From contig NC_013895.2 of the NCBI RefSeq assembly GCF_000025225.2, positions 1,302,001 to 1,366,000 on the forward strand: a DNA stretch of 64,000 nucleotides, given 5' to 3'. Of the stretch, positions 1,542 to 64,000 are shown one piece after another (the stretch's first letter is position 1; every line of letters begins with the position of its first letter). The DNA is from Mageeibacillus indolicus UPII9-5. GTDB taxonomy: Bacteria > Bacillota > Clostridia > Saccharofermentanales > Fastidiosipilaceae. The notes under the pieces are model-generated. The model had not been told where the DNA came from. It saw nothing but the letters and a program-made list of their open reading frames with translations, and did not search any database. The translations under genes were made by a program, and so were the position numbers.

Positions 1542-2372
1542 ATGTTAAAAGCAAAAAAAAGCAGTCCGTACTACGTAGTATCACTGATCATAATGTTCAT
1601 TCTGGCCGTACTTTTCGCTTTCCCGCTGTATTGGATTCTCACCGGGTCTCTGAAGGACGCCGCGGCCATCAACGCCATTGATCCGGAGTGGTTCCCCAAG
1701 GCTCCGACATTGGACAACTATGTTCGCTTGTTTGAGCGTCCGGCCTTTCGCTGGCTGTTTAACACGGTATTAATGGCAGTTGCCGCGATGGGCTTGACTT
1801 GCGTCACCGCTTCCTTGGCCGGTTATGCATTGGCGAAAAAGCGTTTTAAGGGGCGGGTGTTCCTGTTTTCACTGATGGTTGCCGCCATGGCTTTGCCTAA
1901 ACAGGTTATTTTGATTCCGCTTTTGAAAGAAATGGCCTTTCTCGGTATTCACGATAATTTGTTGGCCGTTATTTTGCCGACTGTCGGTTGGCCATTCGGG
2001 GTCTTCCTGATGAAGCAGTTTTCCGAAACCATCCCGACTGAGATGTTGGAAGCGGCACGAATTGACGGAGCCGGAGAATTACGTACTTTCAACAGTGTGG
2101 TAATGCCGATAATCAAGCCCGGCGTAGGAGCATTGGCCATTTTCACCTTTATCAACTCGTGGAATGACTATTTCCTGCAATTGCTCATGCTGAACAGCAA
2201 TAACAATTTGACCATTTCCCTCGGTATCGCCAATCTGCAAGGTGAAATGGCCAGTGACTTCGGACTGATTATGGCCGGTGCCGCTTTGGCTGCCGTGCCG
2301 ATTGTCACTATTTTCTTAATCTTCCAGAAATACTTCACTCAAGGTATTACTATGGGTGCGGTTAAAGGGTGA
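1542..2372 (+). CDS. Sugar ABC transporter permease, MalG-like
   Basis: Second permease of the importer, 276 residues, with six membrane segments. The EAA motif reads EAARIDGAGELRTFNSVVMP. The C-terminus (FQKYFTQGITMGAVKG) is the signature end of MalG/LacG-type permeases. The ribosome site AGGAGG sits 5 bp before the ATG. The gene pairs with the MalF-like permease to form the channel. Confidence 0.93.
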   Translation: MLKAKKSSPYYVVSLIIMFILAVLFAFPLYWILTGSLKDAAAINAIDPEWFPKAPTLDNYVRLFERPAFRWLFNTVLMAVAAMGLTCVTASLAGYALAKKRFKGRVFLFSLMVAAMALPKQVILIPLLKEMAFLGIHDNLLAVILPTVGWPFGVFLMKQFSETIPTEMLEAARIDGAGELRTFNSVVMPIIKPGVGALAIFTFINSWNDYFLQLLMLNSNNNLTISLGIANLQGEMASDFGLIMAGAALAAVPIVTIFLIFQKYFTQGITMGAVKG

Positions 2373-4563: not shown

Positions 4564-4620
4564 TAAGAAAGAACAACAACCGCCCCTCTCCATAATCCGG
4601 GGCAACTCAAACAGGAGGTT

Positions 4621-4690
4621 CCGCACATCGGCGGTGCGACAATGTGGAGACGTGTCGTAAAGTCTGAGGGTTCGACCCCCTCAAGGCAAG
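4621..4690 (+). other. Structured leader with a tRNA T-arm-like hairpin
   Basis: The 165-bp gap before the ATPase gene holds several hairpins: CGCAC/GTGCG with a 7-nt loop (4622-4638), a CGACA/TGTCG stem (4637-4657) whose 5' strand overlaps the first, and GAGGG-TTCGACC-CCCTC (4666-4682). The last has exactly the 5-bp stem and 7-nt GTTCGANNC loop of a tRNA T arm. No matching acceptor stem or CCA is present, so it is not a normal tRNA. It may be a tRNA relic or a regulatory leader for the downstream gene. Confidence 0.45.
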
Positions 4691-4728
4691 GTAAATGAGC
4701 AGAGGCGAATTTATCACGATGGGTAGAT

Positions 4729-5847
4729 ATGGCAACTGTAACATTAAAGGATGTCAAAAAAATTTATGAGAACAAAGTAACTGCGGTACACGGTTTCAAC
4801 TTGGACATTGCCGACAAAGAGTTCATCGTCCTAGTTGGCCCATCCGGTTGTGGTAAATCAACCACTTTACGAATGGTAGCCGGCTTGGAAGAAATCAGCG
4901 ACGGCGAGCTGCTGATCGATGGCAAAAGAATGAACGAAGTTGAGCCAAAAGATCGAGATATCGCTATGGTGTTCCAAAGCTACGCTCTTTATCCGCACAT
5001 GACCGTTTATGAAAACATGGCTTTCGCGCTTAAGTTGCGCAAAATGCCTAAGGCAGAAATTGATCAGCGAGTGCGTGAAGCTGCTAAGATTTTAGGAATT
5101 ACCGAATACTTGGATCGCAAGCCGAAGCAACTGTCCGGTGGTCAACGTCAGCGTGTACCGATCGGACGGGCAATTGTCCGTGAACCTAAAGTATTCTTGA
5201 TGGACGAGCCGTTGTCAAATTTGGACGCTAAATTACGTAACCAGATGCGTGCTGAGATTATTCAATTGCGCCATAGAATTAATACAACTTTCATCTATGT
5301 TACGCATGACCAGACCGAAGCCATGACCTTAGGCGATCGTATCGTAATCATGAAAGATGGTCACATCATGCAAATAGGTACGCCTCAGGAAGTATTTGAA
5401 CATCCAGCCAATATTTTTGTCGCCGGGTTTATCGGCACACCGCAAATGAACTTCTTTGACGCCAAGGTTACCGGCAAAGATGATGATTATATGGTGCAAG
5501 TCGGCACTGCCAAAATCAAACTGACAGGTGAAACAGCCAAGAAGTTGGCGGCGCAAGGGATCACCTCTAAAGATGTTACATTGGGCATAAGACCTGAGCA
5601 TATTGACTTTGTACATACACCCAGTGAAAACACATTGACTGGTAAGGTTGACGTGTCGGAAATGATGGGTAGTGAGTACCACCTGCACGTAACCGTAGAT
5701 AAATACGACATCGTTTTACGTGTTCCGACCACCGATTTGCCGGTTGAATTCAAGGGCGGCGTGTCGTTCGGCACTGAAGTTTCCTTCACCTTCCGGCCGG
5801 AATCTATCCACCTGTTCGATCCGGAAACTGAAAAAAGCTTGCTGTAA
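4729..5847 (+). CDS. msmK: Sugar ABC transporter ATP-binding protein, MsmK/UgpC type
   Basis: ATPase that powers carbohydrate ABC importers. Walker A is GPSGCGKST (about residues 38-46), the Q-loop is VFQSYALYPH, the signature is LSGGQRQRV, Walker B is VFLMDEP, and the switch His is in THDQTEAMTLG. A C-terminal TOBE regulatory domain follows from about residue 240. The residue after LSGGQRQRV is Pro where the family normally has Ala. The gene probably serves the upstream permeases and, as MsmK proteins often do, possibly several other importers. The ribosome site (GATGGG) is weak. Confidence 0.95.
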   Translation: MATVTLKDVKKIYENKVTAVHGFNLDIADKEFIVLVGPSGCGKSTTLRMVAGLEEISDGELLIDGKRMNEVEPKDRDIAMVFQSYALYPHMTVYENMAFALKLRKMPKAEIDQRVREAAKILGITEYLDRKPKQLSGGQRQRVPIGRAIVREPKVFLMDEPLSNLDAKLRNQMRAEIIQLRHRINTTFIYVTHDQTEAMTLGDRIVIMKDGHIMQIGTPQEVFEHPANIFVAGFIGTPQMNFFDAKVTGKDDDYMVQVGTAKIKLTGETAKKLAAQGITSKDVTLGIRPEHIDFVHTPSENTLTGKVDVSEMMGSEYHLHVTVDKYDIVLRVPTTDLPVEFKGGVSFGTEVSFTFRPESIHLFDPETEKSLL

Positions 5848-59300: not shown

Positions 59301-62033
59301 TCATTTGCTTTTGACACTTTTGGCGCGTTTGACACGATAAAAAACAAGCTTATAAATTTCACCGGCCAAGAAAGGAACGCACCCCAAAGCAATTATAATA
59401 ACCCAATGTAGCAAGTCGAGCGGCACGGTCTTAAATATGACATTCAAAACCGGAACATAGAGAACCAACAACAGTAAAGCCATCGAAAGCAAGGTAGCAC
59501 CGGTCATAGTTTTGTTTGAGAAAAAGCCGATTTGCCAAATATTGAACCGTTCCGAGCGGCAGCTGTAAGCACGCAAAAGCTCGGCAAATATCAAAGTTGT
59601 GAACGCCATGGTCTTGGCTTCGAGCAGATCGCCGAACTGACCGCCGAACAGTTGATTGTTTTGCCCAATCAAAAAAGCAATGAACACGGCCGCAAAAATA
59701 GATACTGATTGAACCAAAATAGCTCCGATCATCTCGCGGTTAATTATTTGTTCAGACTTGCTCCGGGGCTTGAGACGCATAATGTCGGCGTCACCTTTTT
59801 CACGGCCTAAGGCTAAGGCCGGGAAGCTGTCCGTAATCAGGTTCAGCCACAAGAGCTGAATTGCTTCTAGCGGGGCTACCCCCATAACCATTGTCGTGAT
59901 AAAGATAACTAAGATTTCAGCGACATTGCAAGATAAAAGGAAACCGACAAATTTGCGGATGTTGCTGTAAATAATTCGACCTTCTTTTACCGCATGTACA
60001 ATCGTAGCAAAGTTGTCGTCCGTCAAAATCATATCGGCTGCGCCTTTAGCGACTTCCGTCCCGGTTATCCCCATTGCAACGCCGATATCGGCCTGTTTGA
60101 GTGCCGGAGCGTCATTCACTCCGTCGCCGGTCATCGAAGCTATATGTCCTTGATTGCGTAAGGCAGCAACTATCCTAACTTTGTGCTCCGGGGAAACACG
60201 TGCATAAACTGATGTCCGATCGACAATTTTTTCCAAATCAGCATCGGACATTTCATCCAATTCGGCACCGGTAACAATACCGTCTCCGGGGCGCAGCAAA
60301 CCGAGATCACGAGCAATGGCCGCGGCTGTATCCTTATAGTCACCCGTAATCATTACCGCTCTTATACCGGCTTCGTTGCAAACAGTTATCGCTTCGCCCG
60401 CTTCCGGACGAGCGGGGTCAATCATACCCATCAAACCGACAAAGGTCATCGCCTGTTCCGCTGTACTTTCGCCTGAAGCCAAATCAGCATGATCATGGTA
60501 AGCGAAAGCGAGCACCCGCAGTGCTGTACTGGCCATGGCCGAATTTGCTTGCGCTATGGCTGCCTTACGTTCCGCCGTCAAAGGCTTGACCCCGTCAGCG
60601 GTCATTTCGGTGTTACAGCGTTCCAAAACAATGTCTGGCGCACCCTTGGTCAAGGATACAACCGGAGCTTCTGCATAACCGTCACAGAATACCGACATCA
60701 TCTTACGATCCGAGTCGAACGGCAACTCGCCAAGTTTTCGGTGGTCGGCCTGCAATTTATCGCGGGTTATACCGGCTTTTGCGCCAGCCGTCAATAATGC
60801 GCCTTCCGTCGGATCTCCAAGGATGCTCCAAGCTTCACCTTCGTTCACCAATTCCGCCGCATTGCACAAGACCCCGATTTCCAGCAAACGCACGTCTGGT
60901 GCCGTAAGCGTAGCTTCATTGCCGTTCAAAGTGAACTTACCCTGCGGATTATATCCACCGCCGCTTACTTCGTACAAATCATTGCCCACATAAATGCGGG
61001 TTACCGTCATTTCATTTTGTGTCAAAGTACCAGTTTTGTCCGAACAAATCACATCAACGCAGCCCAAAGTTTCAACGGCAAGCAAGCGCTTAGCAATCGC
61101 GTTTTGGTCCGCCATTCGCTTCATTCCAATGGCCAAAACAATCGTCACAATCGCCGCCAAGCCTTCCGGAATAGCCGCTACGGCCAAGGCAACGGCCGTC
61201 TTGAAGCCTTCCAAAATCCCGGTCGGCGAATGGTCAACTACCACTTCCTCGACAAACACGACAGCACAAACCACGAGGCAAATGATTGCCAGCATTTTGC
61301 CCAACCGGTTCAGATTTTTCTGCAGCGGTGTTTGTTCTTCTTCGATGCCTTGTAATTTGGCAGCTATCTTACCAATTTCGCTATTGTTTCCGGTATCCGT
61401 GACTACACCCATGCCCCGTCCGTATGTGATAGCAGTTGAGCTGAAAAGCATGTTTTGACGGTCACCCAGGCCAAGATTTTCAGAGGTCTCAAATTCGGCA
61501 TTTTTCTCGACTGGAACAGATTCACCAGTCAAAGAAGCTTCCTCCGCTTTTAAATTTCTTGATTCTATCAGTCGCATATCGGCGGGAACGATGTCACCAG
61601 CTTCTAGCATTACGATATCACCCGGGACCAACTCCTCAGCCGGCAACATAGTTTGTCGCCCATCTCGCAAAACTCTGGCGTGCGGAGCGGCCATTTTTTG
61701 TAAGGCTTCCAAAGCTTTTTCCGCCTTGCCTTCTTGCACTACCCCCAAAACTGCATTAATAACAACTACAACTAAAATAACAGCAGCTTCAATTGCATCT
61801 CCGGTAAAAGCTGAGATCAAGCAGGCGATGATCAAAATTATAACCATTACGTCTGCGAGTTGCTGCAATATTTTTTGCCAAATCGTTACTTTCGCTTTTT
61901 CTTGCAAACTGTTAGGTCCATATTTTGCCTGGCGTTTGCTGACTTCTTCTGCCGATAAGCCTGTCCGGCTTTCAGTTTGTAATGCAGACATAATTGTTTC
62001 TGCAGTACCTTGATAAGGTAAATTATTGTTCAT
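59301..62033 (-). CDS. P-type Ca2+-transporting ATPase (PMCA/SERCA-like)
   Basis: 910-residue P2-type ATPase exporting Ca2+ and perhaps Mn2+. Cation-ATPase N-domain (LQTESRTGLSAEEVSKRQAKYGPN), TGES, helix M4 AIPEGLAAIVTIVLAIGM (ion site), DKTGTLT, KGAPD, GDGVNDAPALK and M6 LWLNLITDSFPALALG with the Asn and Asp ion ligands. GGAAGG precedes the ATG. The leader carries a candidate metal riboswitch with a terminator, which argues for metal-induced expression; Mn2+ would fit that family. Confidence 0.95.
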   Translation of the reverse strand: MNNNLPYQGTAETIMSALQTESRTGLSAEEVSKRQAKYGPNSLQEKAKVTIWQKILQQLADVMVIILIIACLISAFTGDAIEAAVILVVVVINAVLGVVQEGKAEKALEALQKMAAPHARVLRDGRQTMLPAEELVPGDIVMLEAGDIVPADMRLIESRNLKAEEASLTGESVPVEKNAEFETSENLGLGDRQNMLFSSTAITYGRGMGVVTDTGNNSEIGKIAAKLQGIEEEQTPLQKNLNRLGKMLAIICLVVCAVVFVEEVVVDHSPTGILEGFKTAVALAVAAIPEGLAAIVTIVLAIGMKRMADQNAIAKRLLAVETLGCVDVICSDKTGTLTQNEMTVTRIYVGNDLYEVSGGGYNPQGKFTLNGNEATLTAPDVRLLEIGVLCNAAELVNEGEAWSILGDPTEGALLTAGAKAGITRDKLQADHRKLGELPFDSDRKMMSVFCDGYAEAPVVSLTKGAPDIVLERCNTEMTADGVKPLTAERKAAIAQANSAMASTALRVLAFAYHDHADLASGESTAEQAMTFVGLMGMIDPARPEAGEAITVCNEAGIRAVMITGDYKDTAAAIARDLGLLRPGDGIVTGAELDEMSDADLEKIVDRTSVYARVSPEHKVRIVAALRNQGHIASMTGDGVNDAPALKQADIGVAMGITGTEVAKGAADMILTDDNFATIVHAVKEGRIIYSNIRKFVGFLLSCNVAEILVIFITTMVMGVAPLEAIQLLWLNLITDSFPALALGREKGDADIMRLKPRSKSEQIINREMIGAILVQSVSIFAAVFIAFLIGQNNQLFGGQFGDLLEAKTMAFTTLIFAELLRAYSCRSERFNIWQIGFFSNKTMTGATLLSMALLLLVLYVPVLNVIFKTVPLDLLHWVIIIALGCVPFLAGEIYKLVFYRVKRAKSVKSK

Positions 62034-62063: not shown

Positions 62064-62185
62064 AAAAAAAAAGACCCGTCAGCACCAGTGTGCGTCCGTA
62101 GTCTCACTCTATCACGGCAGAACCAGGCTTGCGCCGGCTGTTGATCCTGCCCCCGTAAACGGTGGTTACTCCCTCTTTCGCTTCG
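62064..62185 (-). promoter_or_regulatory. Candidate yybP-ykoY-type (Mn2+) riboswitch with terminator platform
   Basis: In the ATPase leader (minus strand): GAGGGAGTAACC (around 62165-62175), hairpins CCG-TTTA-CGG and GGCAG...CTGCC with an inner GNRA-like GCAA loop, then GTGAGAC (62101-62107). GGGAGTA and TGAGAC at this distance are the conserved blocks of yybP-ykoY aptamers. An imperfect hairpin GAC-CG-GCAC...GTGC-CG-GTC runs straight into nine U residues (complement of 62064-62072) and reuses the GAC of the aptamer, so aptamer and terminator would exclude each other. The outer P1 helix is not obvious, so confidence is moderate. Confidence 0.58.
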
Positions 62186-62188
62186 TCT

Positions 62189-62217
62189 AGTATAGCTGAA
62201 TTGACCATGTTGTGCAA
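62189..62217 (-). promoter_or_regulatory. Promoter of the Ca2+/Mn2+ ATPase gene
   Basis: TTGCAC (complement of 62212-62217), 17-bp spacer, TATACT (complement of 62189-62194). The start of transcription falls just before the candidate riboswitch. Confidence 0.7.
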
Positions 62218-62306: not shown

Positions 62307-63539
62307 TTGCTTACAGTTCAAGAAATTGCTCCGGCCGCCTACGCGGCCATATTGAATACCTCTGATAGCCGGTATTTTTTTAATCAGATGGTTGAATACG
62401 GTCACGGCAAAGAGTCGGACGGAAACAAAGTTGATTATCTCGTTTTTCGCGACAAGGCCGGGGAACCGCAAGCCGTAGCCTTAGTTGTCTACTACCGATA
62501 TCATTATTTCTTCCGCTATGCCAACTGCATTTTCGGGCCGACAATGTTTCATACCGAACCGGAGCTTTTTGCTGAAGTTTTGGGTGTCTTACGAGATTTT
62601 TGTCTTAGAAAATTTAACGTTCGTTATATTCGTTGCAATCCGCTTTTGCCAGCCAATTTGTATGACGATATAATCAAAACAGAAACGGATGTCAGCGCCG
62701 ATTACGTCGCTCTGCTGTCCCGACTTGGCTTTAAACGAGTGGCCGGAGAATGGTACAGCAATCAAACCCTGCATGTGCGCTTCATTTACAGCAAAAAAAT
62801 CTCGGGTATGACCTATGATCAGATTTTAGCCACCGTAGATCCCGTGCTGCGGGTAAATTTGCGCAAATCAGAAAATGAAGACTTAAAATTTCGGTACCTA
62901 AACTATGACGAGTTGGATATTTTCGATGACTTGCTGCAAAAAACTTATGATCGTATGAACACGATAACCACTGTACGCCCCGAAATGAACCGCAATTTGT
63001 ATCGCTGCTTCGGCGATAAAATATATTTTCCGGTTGTATATATTGATTGCGCAGAAGCTTTGCAAAGATATGAAACTTTGCGCAGAGCGGTTTTGGCTGA
63101 TCAAGCCAAGCTTGATGAACGATATGCAGCAAAGCCGTCCACTAAGTATCGGAATTTAAGCCGGGATAACGCTGACCGACTGAATCGTCTGCAAAATTTA
63201 ACCGCCAAAGTAACTGAATTGCAAGCTGATCGGGGCAATTTGATCTACTTGTGCGGCGGGTGTTTCATTGAATCCGGACACGATTTTATTCACCTCTTGG
63301 GTGGCGGTGAAAAATCATTGATGAATCTGCACGGTATTCAGCTTTTGCACAGCCGTATGTTGCAATTGGCGGTCAGCAAAGGTTTCGAATATTATAATCT
63401 GTATGGATGCTCAGGCCTGCTCACGCCGGAAGATAACCAGGTCGATTATGGGGTGCTGCAGTTTAAACGTGCTTTTAGAGGCAATCTTGAAGAATTTATA
63501 GGGACTTATGAATATTGTAAGCCGACCGGAAAGTTTTAA
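62307..63539 (+). CDS. FemAB-family peptidyltransferase, first copy
   Basis: Predicted tRNA-dependent aminoacyltransferase that adds residues to the peptidoglycan interpeptide bridge. Two GNAT-like halves: FFNQMVEYGHGKESDGNKVDYLVFRD, NCIFGPTMF and IRCNPLLPANLYDD at the N-terminus; a coiled-coil insertion (about 250-310, LRRAVLADQAKLDERYAAKP); then IHLLGGGEKSLMNLHGIQLLHSRMLQLAVSKGFEYYNLYGCSG and a FKRAFRGNLEEFIGTYEY end. Length 410 fits FemX/FemA/MurM. The start is TTG behind ACAGGAGG. Confidence 0.92.
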   Translation: MLTVQEIAPAAYAAILNTSDSRYFFNQMVEYGHGKESDGNKVDYLVFRDKAGEPQAVALVVYYRYHYFFRYANCIFGPTMFHTEPELFAEVLGVLRDFCLRKFNVRYIRCNPLLPANLYDDIIKTETDVSADYVALLSRLGFKRVAGEWYSNQTLHVRFIYSKKISGMTYDQILATVDPVLRVNLRKSENEDLKFRYLNYDELDIFDDLLQKTYDRMNTITTVRPEMNRNLYRCFGDKIYFPVVYIDCAEALQRYETLRRAVLADQAKLDERYAAKPSTKYRNLSRDNADRLNRLQNLTAKVTELQADRGNLIYLCGGCFIESGHDFIHLLGGGEKSLMNLHGIQLLHSRMLQLAVSKGFEYYNLYGCSGLLTPEDNQVDYGVLQFKRAFRGNLEEFIGTYEYCKPTGKF

Positions 63540-63586: not shown

Positions 63587-64000
63587 ATGCTAAAGGTAAA
63601 CAAACTTGATAGCACAACTTATAAACAATTGCTGGCCGCCTCTAAAGTACGCTATTTTTTCAACCAAATGGGCGAGTTCGGCGAAAGCAAGATGGCAGAA
63701 GGAAACAAAGTTGACTACCTCTCTTTTTCCGACAGCTCAGGTGAAACACAAGCTTTAGCCCTGGTGGTCTACTATCAATACAAGAAAATTTTACATTATG
63801 GCAACTGTATTTTCGGGCCTACTTTGCTAAACCCCTCACCGAAATTGCTGGACGAGGTTTTACAAACGCTAAAAAAGACAGTTTTGCGGCATGCCGACGT
63901 GCGCTTCCTTCGCTGTAATCCGCTTATTCCGGCCAATTTGTATGAAGATGTCACCATGATCGCGGAAAATGTAGGTGACGACTACCGATCAATTTTCCGA
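63587..64000 (+). CDS. FemAB-family peptidyltransferase, second copy (partial)
   Basis: Runs off the window end. The 138 residues seen (YFFNQMGEFGESK.AEGNKVDYLSF, NCIFGPTLL, LRCNPLIPANLYEDV) align throughout with the upstream gene, so it is a tandem duplicate. Two such enzymes usually add successive bridge residues. CAAGGAG precedes the ATG. The 47-bp gap contains short AGTTTTAGA repeats. Confidence 0.93.
   Translation, partial: MLKVNKLDSTTYKQLLAASKVRYFFNQMGEFGESKMAEGNKVDYLSFSDSSGETQALALVVYYQYKKILHYGNCIFGPTLLNPSPKLLDEVLQTLKKTVLRHADVRFLRCNPLIPANLYEDVTMIAENVGDDYRSIFR

Follow-up and report, generated by a model that had tools for sequence, protein, structure and literature searches.

The leader on the minus strand at 62217-62064 of the analysed window, a continuous stretch of 64,000 nucleotides, lies directly 5' of a P-type ATPase gene and is very probably a Mn2+ riboswitch of the yybP-ykoY class, predicted to switch on, at the level of transcription, the gene of a putative Mn2+/Ca2+ exporter. 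A Mn2+ riboswitch had been proposed here by a sequence-only reading, and the proposal fits sequence, structure, position and gene context, with Mn2+ as the presumed ligand. The element is a newly recognised and ordinary representative of a riboswitch class already known, and the degeneracy of its outer helix, P1.1, is its only unusual feature.

Organisation of the leader and the regulated gene

All parts of the leader are found on the minus strand, in the order in which they had been proposed. Upstream lies a sigma-70-like promoter (62216-62189), composed of TGCACA (62216-62211), a 16-nt spacer and TATACT (62194-62189) and recognised by its consensus match only, at 9 of 12 positions; from these hexamers, transcription is expected to start near 62182. 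It is followed by the two conserved blocks, GGGAGUA (62173-62167; GGGAGTA in the DNA) and GUGAGAC (62107-62101; GTGAGAC), by a terminator hairpin (62104-62072) of -11 kcal/mol that contains one bulge and one internal loop, and by the U9 tract (62072-62064) of this intrinsic terminator. The segment AAGGAAGG lies 3' of the U9 tract, and then comes the ATG at 62033. Around the U9 tract there is also an 8-bp inverted repeat, GCUGACGG / CCGUCAGU (62083-62055, minus strand, -12 kcal/mol), whose formation is possible only after read-through and which would displace the 3' arm of the terminator; none was seen in the few relatives inspected.

The regulated gene (59301-62033, minus strand) encodes a 910-aa P-type IIA cation ATPase resembling Ca2+/Mn2+ pumps, with the Pfam domains Cation_ATPase_N/C and E1-E2_ATPase. 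Its best NCBIfam match is TIGR01522 (PMR1-type), at a score under the cut-off of that model, and its best relatives in the PDB are Listeria lmo0841 and Calcium-transporting ATPase type 2C member 1. By these sequence comparisons, which bear out the Ca2+-type P-ATPase that had been suggested, the protein is predicted to be an exporter of manganese or other divalent cations of the PMR1/SPCA/LMCA1 kind. Divergent from the riboswitch-ATPase unit are a FemAB-family gene (62307-63539, plus strand) and a second, similar ORF (63587-64000, plus strand); elsewhere in the window, a malK-I RNA (RF03069) occurs at 4576-4734 on the plus strand, with 86.7 bits.

Architecture of the aptamer and its outer helix

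The aptamer core, as delimited by covariance models built without the window, spans 62174-62100 on the minus strand, to which all positions in this section refer, and contains helices P1.2, P2, P3 and P4, all present and in order. GGGAGUA provides the 5' strand of L1 together with the top P1.1 base, G62173, which pairs with C62101; the block is invariant in 22 of 22 relatives in an alignment of clostridial copies (A1), and also in alignment A4. GUGAGAC provides the 3' strand of P1.2 (G62107 and U62106, paired with C62165 and A62166), the 3' strand of L1 and the first P1.1 base, C62101, and its AGAC is invariant in the relatives' alignments. Two of the three P1.2 pairs are formed, one A-U and one C-G; at these places G-C and C-G are found in many relatives. 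P2 is a hairpin of three pairs, CCG-UUUA-CGG (62162-62153), taken from the pair list, and relatives have a hairpin at the same position. The region 62151-62116 holds P3, L3 (UCAACA and CUGG) and P4. P3, formed by 62151-62142 with 62116-62125, has 10 of 10 pairs in the window element; over 21 distinct sequences it is 98% paired, with two-sided changes in 7 of its 10 pairs. P4 consists of three pairs over a GCAA loop (GGC-GCAA-GCC, 62135-62126).

The window element keeps every column that is invariant in the relatives: GGGAGTA, C and CA within UCAACA, GG within CUGG, and AGAC. Among these residues, the L3 adenosine A62139 falls in an invariant alignment column with the Mn2+-selective adenosine (A41 in Lactococcus lactis, A48 in Xanthomonas oryzae), and it appears to be in register with A41 of the L. 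lactis numbering. In those two riboswitches, it is the N7 of this adenosine that selects Mn2+ (PMC9190785, PMC6754395).

The layout is that of RF00080 members such as the L. lactis yoaB leader, with which the window element has in common GGGAGUA/GAGAC in L1, UCAACA/CUGG in L3, the arrangement of P1.2 to P4, a terminator that overlaps the 3' side and a P-type ATPase downstream. It differs from them in having a reduced P1.1, in going unreported by the Rfam model, and in carrying GAGACU for GAGACC, as many clostridial copies do. The 3' strand of the weak P1.1 is placed, partly by deduction, at 62101-62092. Only the top pairs are sure, C62101-G62173 and U62100-A62174, and below them lie mismatches or an internal loop, with GCG (62181-62179) perhaps pairing with CGC (62094-62092) in the lower part; the outer helix thus looks as unclear as it had on first inspection. 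P1.1 is interrupted also in the near relatives L039, L046 and L111, while L168, L169 and L149 have longer helices. A weak P1.1 may, speculatively, mean lower read-through or a less sensitive switch. In L169 (1510-1640), the long P1.1 is accompanied by no U-run terminator before the P-ATPase, and translational control is possible there.

With P1.1 down to two sure pairs and a model score that is the lowest in the set, the leader could be taken for a decaying riboswitch, in which the aptamer is still recognisable, P1.1 is broken and switching is lost, so that the leader serves as a constitutive partial attenuator. This is highly improbable, because the retention of all invariant junction and loop residues and of all 10 P3 pairs is unlike free drift, the promoter-like site and the U9 terminator are intact, and other relatives too (the three named above) have an interrupted P1.1; moreover, in L. 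lactis formation of the switch helix starts from the two uppermost P1.1 pairs (PMC11087558).

That the element might be divergent or belong to a different metal class had also been considered. The first part holds insofar as P1.1 is degenerate, but another class is not needed, since the invariant L1 and L3 positions are kept. With E allowed up to 10, Rfam matched neither of two other metal classes (NiCo, M-box), and the sequence fits the yybP core. The NiCo (czcD) riboswitch is likewise a divalent-metal aptamer; according to PMC6754395 it has no L1-L3 docking interface. A subtler version, an aptamer of yybP-ykoY fold whose ligand has changed (to Ca2+, Cd2+, Co2+/Ni2+ or Fe2+, for example) and which controls a Ca2+ pump, could appeal to the Ca2+-pump type of the gene, to the different P1.1 and to the report that other divalent ions are probably sensed by some yybP variants (PMC7266159). 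It is nevertheless very unlikely: the relatives' invariant L1/L3 columns are all kept, the selective adenosine among them, an element of the same bacterial family precedes MntP, and the P-ATPases YoaB of L. lactis and MgtA of Streptococcus pneumoniae stand under Mn2+-responsive copies (PMC11477304, PMC9936198). There is a small chance, on the preferred reading of a yybP-ykoY-class element, that the window element represents a sub-type with a vestigial P1.1, in which Mn2+ mainly locks the AGAC of L1 away from the terminator and switching is done by L1 itself, or else that its metal preference is altered to suit a Ca2+ pump.

Recognition by clade-tuned covariance models

RF00080 gave no match on the window, in either curated or permissive Rfam scans, and none in a whole-genome search, and Rfam as a whole, run on the leader at E up to 10, gave only two chance matches, both on the other strand. 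The absence of a covariance match had been named beforehand as one half of the evidence that would speak against the riboswitch; it is discounted here since the model fails on related leaders as well. The best relatives of the ATPase are from Clostridia, including records named Mageeibacillus, and yybP-ykoY leaders of the plain kind occupy the corresponding position before related ATPase genes; the leaders L085, L092 and L108, for instance, carry GGGGAGTAG followed by GAGACC or AAGACC blocks and terminators. Among those tested, RF00080 misses such plain leaders or scores them under its cut-off, and therefore its silence on the window is uninformative. It exceeds the cut-off in 1 of the 23 related genomes searched, and of 392 clostridial genomes 37 have a match at E<=0.01 and none has one over the cut-off, a gathering score set by the library and not a property of the RNA's biology. 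The window element is missed by Rfam owing to its degenerate outer stem and to a cut-off that is too strict for Clostridia.

Models tuned to the clade recognise it. The 22 clostridial copies in alignment A1 were collected either with RF00080 or from the regions upstream of related ATPases, and the window's genome contributed none; RNAalifold recovers the yybP-ykoY fold from these copies, with a two-sided change in at least one sequence at 21 of 24 pairs. The covariance model made from this alignment (R1), with the window excluded, matches the minus strand at 62100-62174 with 31.6 bits and E 1.2e-5, as its sole match in 64 kb, and over the 1.81 Mb genome the element is again the sole match, at E 3.4e-4; among other loci, R1 also picks out known or likely copies. 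A wider model of 42 sequences (R2), still excluding the window, scores it at 33.4 bits and E 9e-5 per genome, once more as the sole match in the genome, and detects copies in five additional genomes of the same bacterial family. The E-values of both models come from a quick calibration and are rough, to about fivefold either way, and the window's 31.6-33.4 bits are the lowest scores of the recognised set, in which the others range from 40 to 91. As a plain MAFFT alignment misregistered the window's P4, pairs were counted on a model-fitted alignment, which leans towards the model; in it, with 22 copies including that of the window, 93.8% of cells are paired, compared with 70.5% for shuffles and 25-42% for slid versions, and 20 of 24 pairs have a two-sided change.

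If the leader were unrelated and no riboswitch, having a terminator and resembling the two blocks by chance, this would agree with the missing Rfam match and with a folding energy that is ordinary against shuffles (z -1.4 and -0.2) and so decides nothing by itself. Such an explanation is scarcely credible, since the match is the only one in a genome of 1.81 Mb, its location, strand and distance are those expected ahead of the class's usual type of gene, and the loop motifs UCAACA and CUGG are in register too. A search for nucleotide similarity in 98 related genomes gave chance-level matches only.

At E<=1e-4, R2 matched 228 of the 392 clostridial genomes. These counts indicate that most clostridial Mn2+ riboswitches escape Rfam at its current cut-off, and copies of yybP-ykoY in Clostridia are probably under-annotated. 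At two loci, L111 (1501-1611) and L168 (1503-1620), RF02617 (Streptococcus sRNA 10, SSRC10) outscores RF00080, yet stays below its own cut-off; RF02617, although classed as an sRNA, may itself represent a Mn2+ riboswitch.

Proposed switching and gene context

The 5' arm of the terminator takes AGACU (62104-62100), which comprises the aptamer's AGAC and one further base, so that it overlaps L1 and P1.1, and the GAC of the aptamer is indeed the foot of the terminator stem. As judged by sequence and folding, the terminator and the aptamer are predicted to be mutually exclusive, a platform on which the ON switch suggested earlier is plausible. A like arrangement is known in L. lactis, where the terminator's 5' arm overlaps the 3' end of the aptamer (PMC11087558) and the riboswitch precedes the P-ATPase YoaB (PMC11477304); there and in X. 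oryzae, P1.1 is stabilised by Mn2+, and its 3' strand is thereby withheld from the terminator (PMC11087558, PMC6754395). At low Mn2+, AGACU would be free to become part of the terminator hairpin, with RNA polymerase halting at the U9 tract. At high Mn2+, L1 (GGGAGUA/GAGAC) and L3 (UCAACA/CUGG) would be bridged by one Mn2+ and one Mg2+, by which P1.1 would be stacked and AGAC held in L1, and the terminator would not form. Read-through would then allow the P-ATPase to be made and Mn2+ and/or Ca2+ to be exported.

Two other leaders can be likened to the one in the window by description. That of S. pneumoniae mgtA agrees in class and in the kind of target pump, as MgtA is described in PMC9936198 and PMC11477304, citing Martin et al. 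2019, as a Mn2+/Ca2+ ATPase under a Mn-sensing riboswitch that exports both Ca2+ and Mn2+. In another clostridial genome, that of Clostridioides difficile, the CD2503 leader precedes a cation P-type ATPase and is predicted to be a Mn2+ riboswitch (PMC11477304).

Within the same bacterial family, P-ATPases follow the element in G001, G005 and G006, and MntP (PF02659, 4e-21) follows it in G007. Across Clostridia, the first ORF 3' of the element is often, by sequence motif, MntP-like, GDT1/UPF0016-like, a P-ATPase or exchanger-like, with one GDT1 confirmed beyond the motif, and these are the kinds of gene that members of the Mn2+ class are expected to precede. Six E1-E2 ATPases are encoded in the window's genome, and a search of it for MntP and TerC family genes gave no match, so the 910-aa pump may be a main outlet for manganese. 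Probable manganese control is assigned to this pump in a genome with neither a Mn2+ riboswitch reported by Rfam nor an MntP or TerC match. At locus L160, two full copies of the element (1953-2066 and 1543-1656, minus strand) stand in tandem before a GDT1/UPF0016-like gene.
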